Positions 37,809-44,842 are shown, numbered from the stretch's first letter. The stretch: DNA of 64,000 bases from Planctomycetota bacterium (GCA_024279865.1 JAJRRC010000039.1:1-64000), one strand, 5' to 3'. The notes: generated by a model from the sequence alone, not told the origin. A program made the numbers and translations.

Positions 37809-38377
37809 AAACCACTACCGGCTGAAGCCGGTAGGTTAGAAAAAGATTCGTGAGCTACGGACTGAAGTCCTTCGCTCACGAAGGAGTCACATGAAAATCA
37901 TCGCCGCCATCGCCAGGCTCAGCCCCCTCCTGTTCCCGAATGTAGGCCGTGATCGCTTCGTCGGTTACATTACCGCTGCTGGCTACAAAGTACCCGCGAG
38001 CCCACAGATGACGGCCCCAATACTGTTTCTGAAGGTGACGGAATTCCATGAGCAACTTCCGGGAACTTTTGCCCTTGAGATACTGCATCACCTTACTCGG
38101 CGACACGTTCGGCGGACAAGACAGAAACACATGCACATGGTCACTCCCCACAGAACCCTGCAAAATCTCAACCTCGTTCGTCCGACAAATTTCACGGATC
38201 AATTCACGCAAACGGATGCCCACCTCACCAGACAGAATCCTTTTGCGATACTTCGTCACCCAAACGAAGTGGTATACCCATCGGGTATGAATTTTCCCGC
38301 GATGAAAGTCGTTTGAACGCTTAAAACAAGCTGTCGCGTGCACAAGAAAACGGGAAAATTCAATTGCGATTGGTATA
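37809..38377 (-). mobile_element. IS200-type insertion sequence
   Basis: About 570 bases with one transposase gene and no terminal inverted repeats. The right end has the subterminal hairpins ACCGGCTGAAGCCGGT and GTGAGC-(GGACT-GAA-GTCC)-GCTCAC, the left end carries ATACCCATCGGGTAT; such imperfect hairpins are what single-strand transposases of the IS200/IS605 family recognise. The left tip is defined by homology with the relic at 10638. The element could be active. Confidence 0.8.
37876..38343 (-). CDS. tnpA: IS200/IS605-family transposase (Y1, HUH)
   Basis: A 155-residue Y1 transposase that moves single-stranded DNA. It has Y-H-F-V-W-V-T-K-Y-R-K, the HUH motif D-H-V-H-V-F-L-S, L-K-G-K-S-S-R-K-L, and Y-F-V-A-S-S-G-N-V-T-D-E followed by A-Y-I-R-E-Q, which holds the nucleophilic tyrosine. 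It starts at GTG (38343), though the left-end palindrome ATACCCGATGGGTAT lies in the first codons. No TnpB is encoded. Confidence 0.92.
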   Translation of the reverse strand: MHATACFKRSNDFHRGKIHTRWVYHFVWVTKYRKRILSGEVGIRLRELIREICRTNEVEILQGSVGSDHVHVFLSCPPNVSPSKVMQYLKGKSSRKLLMEFRHLQKQYWGRHLWARGYFVASSGNVTDEAITAYIREQEGAEPGDGGDDFHVTPS

Positions 38378-38616: not shown

Positions 38617-38660
38617 ATTTGACGCTAGGGGTTGCATCTAGGACAATACCCCGCCTTATT

Positions 38661-38746
38661 GCCGGTGTGGCGGAATTGGCAGACGCGACGGATTCAAAAT
38701 CCGTTCCGGTTCACCCCGGGTGTGGGTTCGAGTCCCACCTCCGGTA
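38661..38746 (+). tRNA. tRNA-Leu (CAA)
   Basis: Acceptor GCCGGTG with CTCCGGT (one mismatch), anticodon stem-loop ACGGA-TTCAAAA-TCCGT with CAA, a class II variable arm, and T-arm GTGGG-TTCGAGT-CCCAC. It decodes UUG. A terminator follows at once. Confidence 0.93.
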
Positions 38747-38753
38747 TTAAGCA

Positions 38754-38790
38754 GGCGGCCTTTTTTAACGAAAAGGCCGCTTTTTTTTTA
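38754..38790 (+). terminator. Terminator of tRNA-Leu
   Basis: GCGGCC and GGCCGC pair around TTTTTTAACGAAAA and are followed by nine T. Confidence 0.85.
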
Positions 38791-38818: not shown

Positions 38819-39625
38819 CTAATGGTGTTTGTACCACCCAACGCCTTTAATGTCAGGCCAGGAGGTCGTTTGATGACAGGCAAAGCATTCACGGACTTTT
38901 GCTTTGTGTTTCCCGGCCACGGTCTGCGAGATCATGCCAAAGTGCATCATGTAATGGCTTGGAGGAGCCTGATGGCATTGCGAACAATCTCGCGAGGATG
39001 AGGATGGATGGCGATATTGGGGAATATCCCATTGTTGAACGGTGTGGCATTGGGCACAATCTTTTCCGAACAGGCTAAAGTGCTGGTCATCGTTTTGATG
39101 GCAAGTGTAACAGTTCAATAATTTCTCCATCGGCTTGAGGTTCTCGCCTCCAACACGAGTGTTATTCATTTGCATCCAATGCTTGAGATTCGCCAAAGCA
39201 ACCTGATCACCGCTTTGTGGGTCTTTGTTTCGCGACAAGGCTCTCATACCGATTTTCGCCATGGCGGCATGATCCATACCCGTCGGCAGCATGTTCTTGC
39301 CGTTGTGTTCAAGATGGCATTCCTTACAACTTGTCACGTGCGCATGGAATGCCGTGGGTTGTCTTTTGAGAAGGTCTGTGTTGTTGGCATGGCACACAAT
39401 ACATTTGGATGGTTCGACGCCTGTGACCGGGGCATGGCAGGCGGCACAGTTGTTTTCCAGAAAGGCATGGGACTCAGAAAGAGGGCCGGGGCTTGTGAGG
39501 CTTTGCCAAACATTGGCATGTTTAAACCTTGCGTCATCTGGCGTCAAGAACCAGACCACGCCGAGCAGAATGAATGCGCCAGCAAGTATCCAAGGCCATT
39601 TGTTTTTTTTCTTTTTCTTTGCCAT
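38819..39625 (-). CDS. Seven-haem c-type cytochrome, membrane anchored
   Basis: A 268-residue protein with a Lys-rich N-terminus, one transmembrane helix (WPWILAGAFILLGVVWFL) and seven C-x-x-C-H haem sites (C-A-A-C-H, C-I-V-C-H, C-K-E-C-H, C-Y-T-C-H, C-A-Q-C-H, C-S-Q-C-H, C-F-A-C-H). Additional histidines are present for distal ligation. It resembles the cytochrome c3/c7 group used as periplasmic electron wires. It is the last gene of a cluster with a cytochrome b and a flavo-iron-sulfur protein, which points to electron exit across the inner membrane. Confidence 0.88.
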   Translation of the reverse strand: MAKKKKKNKWPWILAGAFILLGVVWFLTPDDARFKHANVWQSLTSPGPLSESHAFLENNCAACHAPVTGVEPSKCIVCHANNTDLLKRQPTAFHAHVTSCKECHLEHNGKNMLPTGMDHAAMAKIGMRALSRNKDPQSGDQVALANLKHWMQMNNTRVGGENLKPMEKLLNCYTCHQNDDQHFSLFGKDCAQCHTVQQWDIPQYRHPSSSSRDCSQCHQAPPSHYMMHFGMISQTVAGKHKAKVRECFACHQTTSWPDIKGVGWYKHH

Positions 39626-39638
39626 GCCTTAACCACGC

Positions 39639-41213
39639 TTATGTTCTTTTTTTGATCGCATCCGCCTGTGCGGTGTCGTTCAGGGTCCAATCATGTTCAA
39701 AAAACTCTATTTTCAGTTTGTCCTCATTGGCTTTGATCCATGCGGTGTGCTTTGCTGGAGCATATTTCAGTACAAAGTCGATCAGAGTCGGATTTTCTTT
39801 TCCATCAAAGAGGTCTTTGTCTGCTTTGAGTATCCATGAGAGTGTTATTTTCATCTCATTTTTTTGAATGCTTAAACCCTTTGTTCGATTGGCGAAAAGG
39901 TTTCGAACCATGTCGTCGAGTTGCTTGTTGAGGTTCTTGCCATAAAAAATGGAATCCGTGCGATCAGGACAACTGACCGCGGCACAACTGACGGCAAAGA
40001 TAATTCTCAGGTCTTTGAATTTGCCCAATAAGATTTCTTTTTCGATTTGACGCAGGCCATAGTTTTTGCCACCGATTTCCACAGCGTCAAGCCCCCATGG
40101 GTCTCCACGCCAACTGATTTTCTTGTCGGTAATCGAATCGACCGGATACTGTTCCGCCACAAGTTTCATAGCTGCAAAATTATAAACATTGATCCAAAAC
40201 GCTTTTTTCTGATCTGTGTTTTGAAAGCCATGGGGATTGATGCGTCGCAGGGATGTCACTGCCTGATTAAAATCGGACTGGGAGATTTTAGATTCTTTAG
40301 CCAACCCTGCGTAATTGAAAACCGTGGTTCGATAGCCGTGGATGGTCACATTGGGGCGCCAGTGTTCTTTGTACAAGCGGGCAAAAGAATTGGAAAATTT
40401 TTCGGGTGCGTCGTCCGACGTGATCGCTGGCTGATATTGCGATGTTAATGTGGTTGGAGCCCATGAATCGCTCCAACGCAAGCCAAAATGAACCGCTCCC
40501 CAGACATGCATCACCAGTAATCCGAAAAGTATCCATGAGATGGCAAAGTGGACCTTGAGCCATTTTCCGAACCATCCTTTGAATGTTTCATGAGACTTGA
40601 TGGCATATTCAAGGTCCGCGATGGATTCTGAAAGACGGATCGCCCGCACTTCGACGGGGAGGGCAAATTCGGGTTCTTTTTCGATTGAAAGAAAAAATTT
40701 CGAAAGCATCCCTGTGAATGATTTGATGGCGATTCGTTGATCCGGGCGGGCTTGTAATTCCGTCATGGTTTGCTGATACATGTCTTGGGCGTTGGTCAGC
40801 AATAATTTTTTTTCACGGACTTCCGTGGAAATATGTTTCAAAAGATAACGGCCAATGTACCCGCTGATCACAACGACAATGGTCATGGCGGTCAAGGTCA
40901 TGCCCAAGGTGCTTTCAAACTTGTGCCCGGTATGCATCAGGACCAGGATCGGGCCTAAGATGCCTGCGTAGATATGAATGGTCAGCAAGGACCGCATGGA
41001 AATGAATTTCGTGATGCGTGTTTTGAGCCATTTGATGCGTTTGGCGAAAACATACGCAAAGGGAACCATCATCAATGCAGAGCCTGAAATAGCGAGTATT
41101 CCCCCCGCAAGGCTACCTGCGAATCGAGAGGAACTGTGCGCTAAAAAGCCCAGCCACAAGACGAGCATGAAGACGGTCAGTGACCCGATGATAAGGGATT
41201 CGCGTTCTTTCAT
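39639..41213 (-). CDS. Cytochrome b-type membrane protein fused to DUF547
   Basis: A 524-residue fusion. Residues 1-240 have about five transmembrane helices with pairs of histidines on facing helices (L-T-I-H-I-Y-A-G, L-M-H-T-G-H, V-H-F-A-I-S-W, M-H-V-W-G-A-V-H), as in di-haem cytochrome b. Residues ~285-480 are a DUF547 domain (A-F-W-I-N-V-Y-N-F-A-A-M and the F-A-V-S-C-A-A-V-S-C-P pair of cysteines), facing the periplasm. I do not know this combination from characterised proteins. Next to it are the seven-haem cytochrome and the FNR-ferredoxin fusion, so it likely takes electrons from the latter. Confidence 0.8.
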   Translation of the reverse strand: MKERESLIIGSLTVFMLVLWLGFLAHSSSRFAGSLAGGILAISGSALMMVPFAYVFAKRIKWLKTRITKFISMRSLLTIHIYAGILGPILVLMHTGHKFESTLGMTLTAMTIVVVISGYIGRYLLKHISTEVREKKLLLTNAQDMYQQTMTELQARPDQRIAIKSFTGMLSKFFLSIEKEPEFALPVEVRAIRLSESIADLEYAIKSHETFKGWFGKWLKVHFAISWILFGLLVMHVWGAVHFGLRWSDSWAPTTLTSQYQPAITSDDAPEKFSNSFARLYKEHWRPNVTIHGYRTTVFNYAGLAKESKISQSDFNQAVTSLRRINPHGFQNTDQKKAFWINVYNFAAMKLVAEQYPVDSITDKKISWRGDPWGLDAVEIGGKNYGLRQIEKEILLGKFKDLRIIFAVSCAAVSCPDRTDSIFYGKNLNKQLDDMVRNLFANRTKGLSIQKNEMKITLSWILKADKDLFDGKENPTLIDFVLKYAPAKHTAWIKANEDKLKIEFFEHDWTLNDTAQADAIKKRT

Positions 41214-41224
41214 TGATATCCCAC

Positions 41225-43084
41225 TTACGCGTCCACAATCAGATTGCCATTGGATTTAGCCTGACAAGCGAGAATCAATCCTTCGGCTTTTTCGTCAGGG
41301 TCCAGACCATCGTCACATTCCATGGTCACTTCGCCTGATAACAGTTTGACGATGCAGGTGCCACAACTGCCGTCTCGGCAGGAATAGTCAATTTCCACGC
41401 CGAGGTCTTCCGCCACATCAAGTACAACCTTGTCCGGGGGTAGTGCGGCTGATTTTGCCGACTGTTTGAAGGTTACACTCGCAGCTTCAGCGGCGGTGGG
41501 AATGACTGTTGGTTCGACGGCAGGCTCTGAAATTGTTTGTGGAGGCGTTTCTTTTTTTGAGGGAGAGGGGCCACCGAAGGCTTCGAGTTGAATTTGATCT
41601 TGGGGAACACCCAATTCAACCAAGATGTTTTTGGTCGCTTCCATCATGGAATTCGGGCCGCAGATATGGGTGAGGCTCGAAACAATCTCAGGGACGCATT
41701 GCTTGATTTTATCCTTATCAAAACGGCCACGAAGTCCGGTCCAGGTATCTTCTGTTTCACGCGTCGCGGAGATATGGACATTGAGATTGGCGTGACGTTT
41801 TTGCAGATAGTCCAGTTCTTGCTGGAAAATAATATCCTGTGCGGTTTTGCAGGCAAACAACAGGTTGATTTCATTTTTCCAGCCGGTATCCAACAAATAA
41901 CGGATGACACTCATCAACGGGGTGATTCCCACGCCAGCCCCGATGAGGACAATTTTGTTAGCTTCTTTTCCGGTAAAGGTAAAATCACCCCGAGGCGCGG
42001 ACAGTTCTAGGGTATCGCCTTCTTTGAGTTCATCGGTCAGATATCGGGAGACGAGTCCTTTTTCTTCTCGTTTGACGGTGATTTCGCAATACGATTTTCT
42101 CGTTGGTGTCGAGGCAATGGTGTAACTTCTCTTGACGCGTTTGCCGCTTAGATTCAGTTTGAGTGTCAGGAATTGGCCAGGCAGATAGTGAAACGGGATA
42201 TCGCCACCCTGAGGATTGACGAGTCGAAACGTATGAACGTCGTTGGTTTCTTTGTAAATGCGGGCAAGGATCAGTGTGCCTGAAAAGAGTTTGGGCTTTT
42301 GGGCGGTTTCGGTTGTGGCATTGACGATCGTGGGTGTGGATGCAGTGGGCGTGTCTTTTTTCGGGGAAGCTTCTTTCCCCGGTGGCTGCGTGAGGGCTTG
42401 CATTAACGCAGCCGCTCGTTTCATTTTGAAGAAGTACATCCAAATCATCAAGACAAAAAACAGGATCAAGAGCGTCATGGTAATCAGATGAAACCAGGAG
42501 ATGCCAAAGGGGCCATGGGGCGAAGCATACATGGTTGTTGAAACGAGGTTCATCTCTTTTTTGAACCATTGCAGGGCCACATTGCGGGGAGCTTTGCCTT
42601 CTTCTAATGCGCGATGTGCCGCGAGCCCGCTTTCAAATTGTGCGGAACCTGAGCGGAATTTTCCCATCGCCTTTTGCATGGTTAAGAAATCATCCTTCGA
42701 GGCTGCGTTGATCAGGATGTCCAGAGCCTGTGCCATCAAGGTGGTGCCCTCTGCCATCCTCTGACGTGCGAGGGCCTTGATTTCCATTCGCTTTTCCGGG
42801 GGTAGATCAGGCAGGTCCATCAGTGATGGGTAAATATCTTTGGGCTTTGGGGCGCCCATTTTTTTCATCATGCCACCCATACCACCCTTACCGCCCATAC
42901 CACCGCTGCCGCCCATCATGCCGCCTTTTTTCTCACTACTTTTGGCATCCTTTGCCCCAGCAGGGTGGTGTTTTTTGTGATCTTTGCCGGACTGGGCCAA
43001 GGCTGGGCTGATCGCGAGGGTTAAAAAAAACAAGAGAGCCAATGTCCAGACAGGGACCGGCAGGTATTTTAGATATTTTTTCAT
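41225..43084 (-). CDS. Membrane FNR-type reductase fused to a [2Fe-2S] ferredoxin, with periplasmic N-terminal domain
   Basis: A 619-residue protein. Signal peptide (1-30), Gly/Met-rich spacer with M-G-G repeats (~55-80), a helical domain (~85-190), a transmembrane helix (~205-222), an FAD-binding domain with R-S-Y-T-I-A-S, a NAD-binding domain with G-A-G-V-G-I-T-P-L-M-S, and a C-terminal plant-type ferredoxin with C-R-D-G-S-C-G-T-C and a distal cysteine in L-A-C-Q-A-K. It should oxidise NAD(P)H in the cytosol and hand the electrons to the cytochrome b encoded 11 bases downstream. The periplasmic Met-rich head suggests contact with a metal. Confidence 0.87.
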   Translation of the reverse strand: MKKYLKYLPVPVWTLALLFFLTLAISPALAQSGKDHKKHHPAGAKDAKSSEKKGGMMGGSGGMGGKGGMGGMMKKMGAPKPKDIYPSLMDLPDLPPEKRMEIKALARQRMAEGTTLMAQALDILINAASKDDFLTMQKAMGKFRSGSAQFESGLAAHRALEEGKAPRNVALQWFKKEMNLVSTTMYASPHGPFGISWFHLITMTLLILFFVLMIWMYFFKMKRAAALMQALTQPPGKEASPKKDTPTASTPTIVNATTETAQKPKLFSGTLILARIYKETNDVHTFRLVNPQGGDIPFHYLPGQFLTLKLNLSGKRVKRSYTIASTPTRKSYCEITVKREEKGLVSRYLTDELKEGDTLELSAPRGDFTFTGKEANKIVLIGAGVGITPLMSVIRYLLDTGWKNEINLLFACKTAQDIIFQQELDYLQKRHANLNVHISATRETEDTWTGLRGRFDKDKIKQCVPEIVSSLTHICGPNSMMEATKNILVELGVPQDQIQLEAFGGPSPSKKETPPQTISEPAVEPTVIPTAAEAASVTFKQSAKSAALPPDKVVLDVAEDLGVEIDYSCRDGSCGTCIVKLLSGEVTMECDDGLDPDEKAEGLILACQAKSNGNLIVDA

Positions 43085-43119
43085 AAAATGACTCTTTGGA
43101 AAAGTCGTGGGAAGGGATT

Positions 43120-43935
43120 TTATTTCGCTTCTTGTGTATCACCAGAACCCTCGTCGGGCATGTCTTGCATCATGCCTGTCAGGGTTTTTTGCTGCTCTTG
43201 GGTCAAGACACCAGCCGCTTTCCCAATGAAACGGATGAAGGCGAGACGCTGATTGCCTTTGACCTTTTCAATTTCTCGGATTTTCTTCTCGATGAATTCA
43301 ATTTTGGGCTGATCGGAACTGGTCATTTCCCATAAGTCCTGCTCCGCCTGCTCGACGGTTCTTTCAAACGTGGCATGACTTAACAATGCCTTCTCTTTGA
43401 ACTGGTTTAATTTGGCTTGTTGTTGGGTGGACAGTGAAATGTGGTCGGCATGATTCAGAAAAAATCCTGTCGAGCCAATATGATAAAGGTGCGATGTGCC
43501 GGGAAATCCGGGAAGTGCCGATTGGGCCATCTGCTTTTGACGCATTTTTCCCATCATGCCCATGCTGCCCTGACCCATCATGCCCATACCCATTTTCATG
43601 GATTTCATTTTGCCCATGCTCTTTTTTTTCATGGTGGCACCCATTTTCATGGGAGATTTTTTCTTCATTTTATCCATGGATTTCATTTTGCCCATGGATT
43701 TCATGTCCATCGATTTCTCCGGCATGTCAGCGGTCTCTTCAATGCCAAGTTTGGCTTCTAATTGTGTGATCTTTTCCCGAAGCTCAGTCAATTGGCTGAC
43801 CAAGGGCGTTTCACCATTGGGTGATTCGTTTTCTTGTGCAGACACAAAGCCATCCACACTTGCGACGGCCACAAAAACGAACAAGGTTAAAAAAAGAGAA
43901 GAGAACTTTTCAAAGAGATGATTGGCGGGCATCAT
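43120..43935 (-). CDS. Exported Met/Lys-rich CpxP/Spy-like protein
   Basis: A 271-residue exported protein. After a signal peptide and a coiled stretch (L-T-E-L-R-E-K-I-T-Q-L-E-A-K-L) come ~70 residues made of short repeats of K-S-M-x-K-M-K and G-M-M-G, a striking Met/Lys array. The C-terminal 130 residues are helical with two L-T/S-x-x-Q motifs (L-S-T-Q-Q-Q, L-T-Q-E-Q-Q), as in Spy/CpxP metal-stress sensors. Methionine arrays of this sort bind copper or silver. The start at 43935 has AGGAAAAAT upstream. It opens the electron-transfer cluster, which might therefore be a metal-reduction or metal-defence system. Confidence 0.75.
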   Translation of the reverse strand: MMPANHLFEKFSSLFLTLFVFVAVASVDGFVSAQENESPNGETPLVSQLTELREKITQLEAKLGIEETADMPEKSMDMKSMGKMKSMDKMKKKSPMKMGATMKKKSMGKMKSMKMGMGMMGQGSMGMMGKMRQKQMAQSALPGFPGTSHLYHIGSTGFFLNHADHISLSTQQQAKLNQFKEKALLSHATFERTVEQAEQDLWEMTSSDQPKIEFIEKKIREIEKVKGNQRLAFIRFIGKAAGVLTQEQQKTLTGMMQDMPDEGSGDTQEAK

Positions 43936-43993: not shown

Positions 43994-44518
43994 TTAACGC
44001 AAAGCATTCGCCAAGCGAAGTGTTTCATCACACAGTTCTTCAATGCGGCCTTGGATTTTTTCATCCACCACCTGCCCATCTTTAAATGCTTCCCCCGTCG
44101 CATACACAAACCGAGGCACCACCAAGGTGCGAAAGTCCAACATCAAATCACCCGCTAGCCCCATCACCGAGGCGTAGCTGCTATGCCCGCCTGCTGCACA
44201 GATAAAACCCACAATCTGATCCGTCCAAGCGTCCCGACCCGTTAACTCCACCAAATTCTTGGCCGCTGCATTGATATCAAAATTGTAAATCGGCACTGCC
44301 ATGATAACTGCCTTCGCCCCGGCAATCATCTGCTTCAACGGCTCCACACGCCGATGGGCATAAGCACTGCCGCCATCACAAAACGGTAAATCCTCATCCT
44401 GCAAATCCAACCAAGATGTGGCAACCTCCTTGCTCTGCAAATAAGCCTGGGCCTGGCGAGCCATCACCCTTGAGTGACTGGTGGGTTTTAGTGAACAACT
44501 TAAAAGTAAAATAGACAT
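43994..44518 (-). CDS. NADPH-dependent FMN reductase
   Basis: A 174-residue flavodoxin-fold protein. L-S-C-S-L-K-P-x-S-H-S-R is the FMN phosphate loop, V-P-I-Y-N-F-D-I-N-A-A-A-K-N is the second flavin contact, and the central A-A-G-G-H-S-S-Y loop fits the family. It can supply reduced FMN or reduce quinones or metals. It starts with AGGAACCC. It lies 58 bases before the CpxP-like gene and may belong to the same unit. Confidence 0.9.
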   Translation of the reverse strand: MSILLLSCSLKPTSHSRVMARQAQAYLQSKEVATSWLDLQDEDLPFCDGGSAYAHRRVEPLKQMIAGAKAVIMAVPIYNFDINAAAKNLVELTGRDAWTDQIVGFICAAGGHSSYASVMGLAGDLMLDFRTLVVPRFVYATGEAFKDGQVVDEKIQGRIEELCDETLRLANALR

Positions 44519-44551
44519 GAGGGTTCCTGTTTTCTGAAAAAATAGCTTGTT

Positions 44552-44842
44552 TTAAGACTGATTCAGTTGATGCCATGCGCGAACACAATCACAACAGATA
44601 CATGCTTTGCTGCGTAAATGCCGCGGCACCTGATCCAAAAGTTCTTTCGCAATGGTAACCGACTCACACCAACACCCCCCGCCCCCGCCCCCGGAAGTGT
44701 CCTCGAAAATGCTTCCTGAATTCCCCGCCAGATCATCCCCGGACATGACCCCAGAGCAATTTTGGGGATCAAGCATTGATTCCATCGCCATCACACAGCC
44801 ATTGGGCTTGCCACAAATCGGACAACAGGTTGGGTCAATCAA
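44552..44842 (-). CDS. Cysteine-rich CWC family protein, with glycine-tract insertion
   Basis: A 96-residue protein of the cysteine-rich CWC family: C-C-P-I-C-G-K-P-N-G-C, C-W-C-E-S-V and C-I-C-C-D-C-V, probably a zinc-binding small protein of unknown role. Between the first and second cysteine groups ~30 residues appear to be inserted (with S-G-G-G-G-G-G); they are encoded by a copy of the poly-C motif (44675-44698). No ATG is in frame; translation would begin at TTG 44842, directly beside repeat copy B. So the gene may have lost its original 5' end. Confidence 0.65.
   Translation of the reverse strand: MIDPTCCPICGKPNGCVMAMESMLDPQNCSGVMSGDDLAGNSGSIFEDTSGGGGGGCWCESVTIAKELLDQVPRHLRSKACICCDCVRAWHQLNQS
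44675..44698. repeat. Poly-C motif variant in the CWC gene
   Basis: CACCCCCCGCCCCCGCCCCC followed by GGAAGTGT. It differs from the other copies by two G interruptions, and encodes the glycine tract. Confidence 0.6.

Follow-up and report, generated by a model that had tools for sequence, protein, structure and literature searches.

Four adjacent genes in a 64,000-nucleotide stretch of DNA from a Planctomycetota bacterium (GCA_024279865.1 JAJRRC010000039.1:1-64000; the window) raise the question of where a chain of redox proteins, predicted to span the inner membrane, delivers its electrons. The sequence-only reading had described a path from NAD(P)H over FAD, [2Fe-2S] and haem b to haem c, had linked the methionine-rich segments to copper or silver and had proposed a metal reductase, a detoxifier or an extracellular electron exit.

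Layout of the cluster and its flanks

The four genes lie at 38819-43935 on the minus strand, separated by gaps of 35, 11 and 13 bp, and the coordinates and the strand first assigned to them were both correct (Table 1).

Table 1. Positions of the cluster features in the window and the evidence for each
Feature	Position	Strand	Evidence
Met/Lys-rich Metal_resist (Spy/CpxP/LTXXQ-like) protein, periplasmic	43120-43935	-	composition, homologues, shared gene position
Membrane flavoprotein (FNR-ferredoxin)	41225-43084	-	Pfam, conserved residues, model, Foldseek
Cytochrome b-DUF547 fusion, whole gene	39639-41213	-	Pfam DUF547, HX13H pairs
Cytochrome b part of the fusion	40464-41213	-	conserved HX13H pairs, topology, structure comparison
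DUF547 domain, C-terminal part of the fusion, predicted periplasmic	39639-40463	-	Pfam
Heptahaem cytochrome c, inner-membrane-anchored	38819-39625	-	CXXCH count, N-terminal anchor

Upstream on the same strand, the stretch 43994-44842 encodes an FMN reductase and a Cys-rich CWC protein. An interval of 58 bp separates the end of the FMN reductase gene (43994-44518) from the Met-rich gene, and the FMN reductase did not recur as a conserved companion in the module neighbourhoods of the relatives. The pair possibly shares a transcript with the module, although it is not conserved with it. Promoter-like sites in the cluster region were no more numerous than expected by chance. At the other end, a tRNA-Leu (CAA) gene with its own terminator hairpin (38660-38782) stands directly behind the cytochrome c gene on the opposite strand, followed by an IS200-like transposase (37876-38343). 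A tRNA gene and a mobile element next to the cluster are what is typically seen at an island edge.

Conservation and spread of the unit

The same four genes were found in the same order in 7 related planctomycete genomes, where the cytochrome b is about 45-57% identical. Among 84,980 species genomes scanned with a cytochrome b profile, 234 relatives were confirmed, and the best 80 of these were analysed. These best 80 come from the Planctomycetota, Nitrospirota, Nitrospinota, Hydrogenedentota, Verrucomicrobiota, Myxococcota, Chloroflexota and Elusimicrobiota as well as from the Alpha- and Gammaproteobacteria, Legionella included. At 63 loci, one of them the window, the flavoprotein, cytochrome b and cytochrome c genes could all be called, and in 62 of these they lie side by side in the same orientation, which argues that the arrangement is more than chance. 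The Met-rich protein is encoded near the module in 43 of the best 80 loci. The sequence-only reading had named a lack of conservation as a unit as a result that would refute it, and the conservation found here speaks in favour of a unit. The module is a mobile and very widespread protein set.

A sister arrangement was observed in the planctomycete loci L136, L137 and L038, where a [4Fe-4S] thioredoxin-reductase-like flavoprotein accompanies a cytochrome b that is homologous to that of the module and shares its HX13H pairs. L136 and L137 also encode a large multihaem cytochrome c, and in L038 the flavoprotein and the cytochrome b are fused into one protein of 766 aa. About 54 of 392 genomes of the phylum have only distant matches of this sister type.

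The DUF547 domain of the window protein is recognised by Pfam with an E-value of 1.6e-17, and the motif SCAAVSCPDR is invariant in the aligned DUF547-fused set. The fusion, at first counted as part of the system, occurs in only 13 of the best 80 of 234 loci besides the window, in Planctomycetota, Hydrogenedentota and Nitrospinota, and its distribution on the tree is patchy, requiring at least 3 changes. DUF547 was therefore rejected as an essential part; it is a recurrent optional accessory. A multicopper oxidase is encoded beside 1 of the 13 fused loci as against 33 of the 67 others (p 0.006, uncorrected for relatedness and contig size), a difference that is no more than a lead, and the fused modules often adjoin a P1B-type ATPase. 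The papers found on DUF547 dealt almost entirely with plants.

The proposed electron path across the membrane

The flavoprotein matched the Pfam families FAD_binding_6, NAD_binding_1 and Fer2, all far above the cut-off, and NAD_binding_6 (Ferric reductase NAD binding) with 26.2 bits. The FAD, NAD and four-cysteine Fer2 features of a plant-type [2Fe-2S] ferredoxin reductase of the PDR/PaaE type are all present, the best Foldseek match was phthalate dioxygenase reductase (2pia, E 4e-25), and the Fer2 cysteines C569, C574, C577 and C607 are invariant in 49 sequences. Two hydrophobic segments, a signal at 5-33 and a transmembrane segment at about 191-224, place the Met/Gly-rich head in the periplasm and the FNR part in the cytosol. 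The periplasmic head contains a His cluster (H36/H39/H40), a Met/Gly segment and, in the model, a helical hairpin at 96-177; the three histidines are nearly invariant in the homologues and the Met residues are conserved. The head was also compared with hhalign as a candidate second Metal_resist domain, which was rejected as no match was obtained.

The cytochrome b has five transmembrane helices, with H80 and H94 in TM3 and H222 and H236 in TM5. Both pairs are of the form HX13H and are invariant across 56 homologues. The NOX, Fre and MsrQ proteins have the same haem-ligand layout, with the ligands on helices III and V. Two haems b are predicted, one at the cytosolic side between H80 and H222 and one at the periplasmic side between H94 and H236. 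The positive residues between TM2 and TM3 suggest that a long helical hairpin (125-220) is in the cytosol, as in the predicted topology, and DUF547 in the periplasm. The cytosolic hairpin could be the docking site for the flavoprotein.

The cytochrome b part of the window protein had no Pfam match above the cut-off, and Ferric_reduct (PF01794) was matched by 2 of 8 relatives (best E 0.0047), the window protein not being listed. When the model was compared with known structures, the NADPH oxidase of S. pneumoniae was found with a Z score of 9.4 over 121 residues at 4.0 A, a score that unrelated helical proteins reach as well. Cytochrome b561, duodenal cytochrome b and NOX5 were also among the better matches in this noisy helical background. 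Duodenal cytochrome b is a ferric/cupric reductase. Foldseek gave no significant match with the cytochrome b model (best E 0.84), and searches by sequence found no solved relatives of the cytochrome b, the cytochrome c or the Met-rich protein. Some homologues are named 'iron reductase' in RefSeq. Sequence and fold comparison agree weakly with the NOX/Fre/MsrQ layout.

The cytochrome c has seven CXXCH motifs, one N-terminal anchor and a conserved GWYKHH at its end. Seven haems were counted in 73 of 73 scored homologues, nearly all of which end in YKHH. The NrfH model matched weakly, at 23 bits where the cut-off is 134. Since no conserved terminal reductase follows it, the cytochrome c may itself be terminal.

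The proposed order of carriers from NAD(P)H to haem c is supported by these features, and from them we infer the direction of the electron flow and the step from [2Fe-2S] to haem b. Cytosolic NAD(P)H would reduce the FAD of the flavoprotein, and the plant-type [2Fe-2S] domain would pass single electrons to the haem at the cytosolic side of the cytochrome b. The electrons would cross to the haem at the periplasmic side and then reach the anchored heptahaem cytochrome c.

The Met/Lys-rich protein

The fourth gene encodes a protein of 271 aa with 28 Met and 31 Lys residues. The 10.3% Met of its open frame, against a window mean of 2.8%, is the highest of all long ORFs in the window, and the motif LPGFPGxSHxYHIGxTGFFLxH is conserved. 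The earlier label of a CpxP-like protein holds by way of the homologues, 7 of 7 of which matched Metal_resist in the alignment (best E 1.2e-8), whereas the window protein alone scored below the cut-off against the profile (PF13801, PF07813 group; E 0.11). Judged by these homologues, the protein belongs to the Metal_resist/LTXXQ group. A Variovorax 'periplasmic heavy metal sensor', encoded at the same gene position, is 51% identical to it over 156 aa.

Copper and heavy-metal genes near the module

The connection to copper, or more widely to heavy metals, was borne out by the gene neighbourhood in many phyla. A gene for a multicopper oxidase, a P1B-type ATPase, a CusA/CusB-like protein or CopB was found within about 10 kb in 47 of the 59 loci longer than 15 kb, and in 1 of 20 controls (p 2.6e-9), which were arbitrary 20-kb stretches from five module-bearing planctomycete genomes only. 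When Legionella and the Nitrospirales were left out, a marker was still present in 32 of 44 long loci (p 2.4e-7). The other 12 of the 59 long loci had none of these markers within about 10 kb. CopB was found in 5 of 8 related genomes with the module as against 4 of 93 without it (p 8e-5), and in two relatives the operon continues into DUF1622, a multicopper oxidase and CopB.

Most of the plasmid copies examined sit in metal-resistance islands (Alteromonas, Methylophaga, Legionella fallonii, Sphingobium, Variovorax and Spirosoma), and several adjoin NADPH-making enzymes. The genes in Variovorax run from 'periplasmic heavy metal sensor' over the flavoprotein, 'hypothetical' and 'cytochrome c3' to alcohol dehydrogenase, followed by the metal genes, namely a four-helix copper protein, a CopA-type oxidase and CopB, and by gnd and zwf. 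The Alteromonas pAM1A3 island encodes CopC, CopD, a copper-binding protein and a NiFe hydrogenase near the module. The plasmid-bearing Alteromonas strain showed a higher resistance to Zn, Hg and Cu (PMC4781885), and the papers on this island mention no cytochrome. Mercury genes are present in the Methylophaga island. Besides the hydrogenase of Alteromonas, the plasmid contexts beyond copper include glycogen enzymes in Pontibacter, and the Bradyrhizobium copy had no copper marker in the stretch examined.

Neither CopB nor a multicopper oxidase was found in the surroundings of the window or in its genome, which is about 96% complete; three P-type ATPases were detected, one of them with Cu+-type motifs. 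The module therefore seems independent of a multicopper oxidase, so that feeding such an oxidase is less likely to be its only role, and neither this oxidase nor CopB seems to be required.

Genes that could supply the electrons were also found. Glutamate dehydrogenase is encoded in 33 of the best 80 of 234 loci as against 0 of 20 controls, and zwf and gnd lie near the module in Sphingobium, Bradyrhizobium and Variovorax, joined by transaldolase in Bradyrhizobium. The nearby glutamate, glucose-6-phosphate and phosphogluconate dehydrogenases fit a system that consumes NAD(P)H.

Two further groups of neighbours were noted. A complete second F-type ATP synthase operon lies directly upstream of the flavoprotein gene in the Legionella loci L090-L093, L097, L112, L114, L121, L122 and L124, and a second F-type ATP synthase is encoded near the module on plasmid II of Legionella fallonii. 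Glycogen-related genes recur near the module in loci L031-L033, L037, L067, L116-L119, L159 and L189; they encode small AMPK/CBM48 glycogen-binding proteins, alpha-glucan phosphorylase, isoamylase and GH15.

Discussion

We tentatively favour a transmembrane metal-stress reductase with Cu(II) as the most likely acceptor, a reading to which we give slightly less than an even chance. It is built on the domains, the predicted topology, the conserved haem ligands, the gene order, the breadth of occurrence and the enrichment of copper and heavy-metal genes. The heptahaem protein would most likely reduce Cu(II) to Cu(I), which is the form handled by Met-rich sites, Cus-type pumps and P1B-1 ATPases, and copper would be kept nearby by the flavoprotein, through its His/Met head, and by the Met-rich Metal_resist protein. 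Of the metal reductase first proposed, the link to metal has held through the neighbourhood; that metal, and copper in particular, is what takes up the electrons is our inference. The many copper islands that encode a Cu(I)-oxidising multicopper oxidase speak against it, as this enzyme would oppose a cupric reductase. So do the 12 long loci that lack the markers, the missing CopB and multicopper oxidase genes of the window's genome and the plasmid contexts that go beyond copper. A more specific version is possible but more doubtful, namely a horizontally spread, dedicated periplasmic cupric reductase driven by NAD(P)H, in which a split cytochrome b of the NOX/Fre kind is coupled to a heptahaem cytochrome c and to Met-rich proteins that hold copper, and which is often powered by the pentose-phosphate or glutamate dehydrogenase genes of its island.

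The main rival, which we consider rather unlikely, is a periplasmic repair or antioxidant reductase. The electrons would keep the Met-rich copper proteins, or thiols or peroxide, reduced in the manner of MsrPQ, the heptahaem protein replacing MsrP. MsrQ is likewise a haem b membrane protein of the ferric-reductase type, and Met-rich partners are kept beside the module. This rival ranks first because MsrPQ is induced by copper and repairs the methionines of the copper chaperone CusF in E. coli (PMC9302797). However, the four genes of the module encode neither a molybdopterin MsrP nor an Msr domain, no MsrP was seen among the recurrent neighbour clusters scanned, and no heptahaem cytochrome is known to reduce methionine sulfoxide.

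It is less probable still that the module is an electron sink or respiratory bypass that drains NAD(P)H to oxygen, a multicopper oxidase or another periplasmic acceptor when copper damages the respiratory chain. NAD(P)H-producing genes, the hydrogenase of Alteromonas and the second ATP synthase of Legionella adjoin it in some islands, but no terminal oxidase or reductase partner is conserved and the window genome has no detected multicopper oxidase.

The mercury genes of Methylophaga and the heavy-metal regulators and efflux pumps of other islands would suit a reductase that acts on a toxic metal other than copper (silver, mercury, gold, chromate or tellurite). We regard this as improbable, as the copper-specific markers dominate (CopB, multicopper oxidase, CopC/CopD and four-helix copper proteins).

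The extracellular electron exit to minerals or an electrode, of the Mtr/Omc kind, has been largely abandoned as very improbable: the multihaem cytochrome c and its weak match to the MtrC/MtrF domain (E 2.1e-7) point to it, but conserved multihaem partners are lacking, with proteins of three or more haems besides the cytochrome c in only 2 of 80 loci, and a single cytochrome anchored in the inner membrane is unable to cross the outer membrane.

In the open-access literature that was searched, no description of the module was found, nor by way of DUF1622 and copper. Its genes are mostly annotated 'hypothetical protein'. The parts are of known kinds, and their combination in copper islands is undescribed as far as this search shows. 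As the module occurs in cultured strains, it is directly testable.

The proteins of the ferric reductase superfamily (yeast Fre, STEAP and the NADPH oxidases, including NOX of S. pneumoniae) resemble the module in that an NAD(P)H-FAD domain feeds a membrane cytochrome b with two haems on HX13H-type pairs of two helices, from which the electrons exit at the outer face. The module shares the two HX13H pairs on two transmembrane helices and has the FAD/NAD(P)H partner gene adjacent in 62 of 63 loci. It differs in that flavoprotein and cytochrome b are separate proteins and in the addition of a plant-type [2Fe-2S] domain, the heptahaem cytochrome c and the metal-binding periplasmic head. MsrPQ of E. 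coli also delivers electrons to the periplasm through a haem b membrane protein and is linked to copper stress (PMC9302797), whereas the module has a dedicated flavoprotein and the heptahaem cytochrome instead of MsrP. CcoG, proposed for Cu(II) reduction and the first specific membrane protein for it in bacteria according to a review (PMC7558416), is of a different family, with two [4Fe-4S] clusters and neither a haem chain nor an NAD(P)H domain. The NapC/NrfH-type and Mtr/Omc cytochromes are likewise anchored periplasmic multihaem cytochromes c, but are fed by quinol or are part of outer-membrane conduits. The sister planctomycete clusters L136 and L137 follow the same logic with the homologous cytochrome b and differ in their flavoprotein, which is thioredoxin-reductase-like with 4Fe-4S, and in their larger cytochrome c. 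Accounts of copper resistance centre on export, the oxidation of Cu(I) and sequestration; the module would add a redox arm to these and may be a missing copper-reducing or copper-stress repair machine of bacteria.
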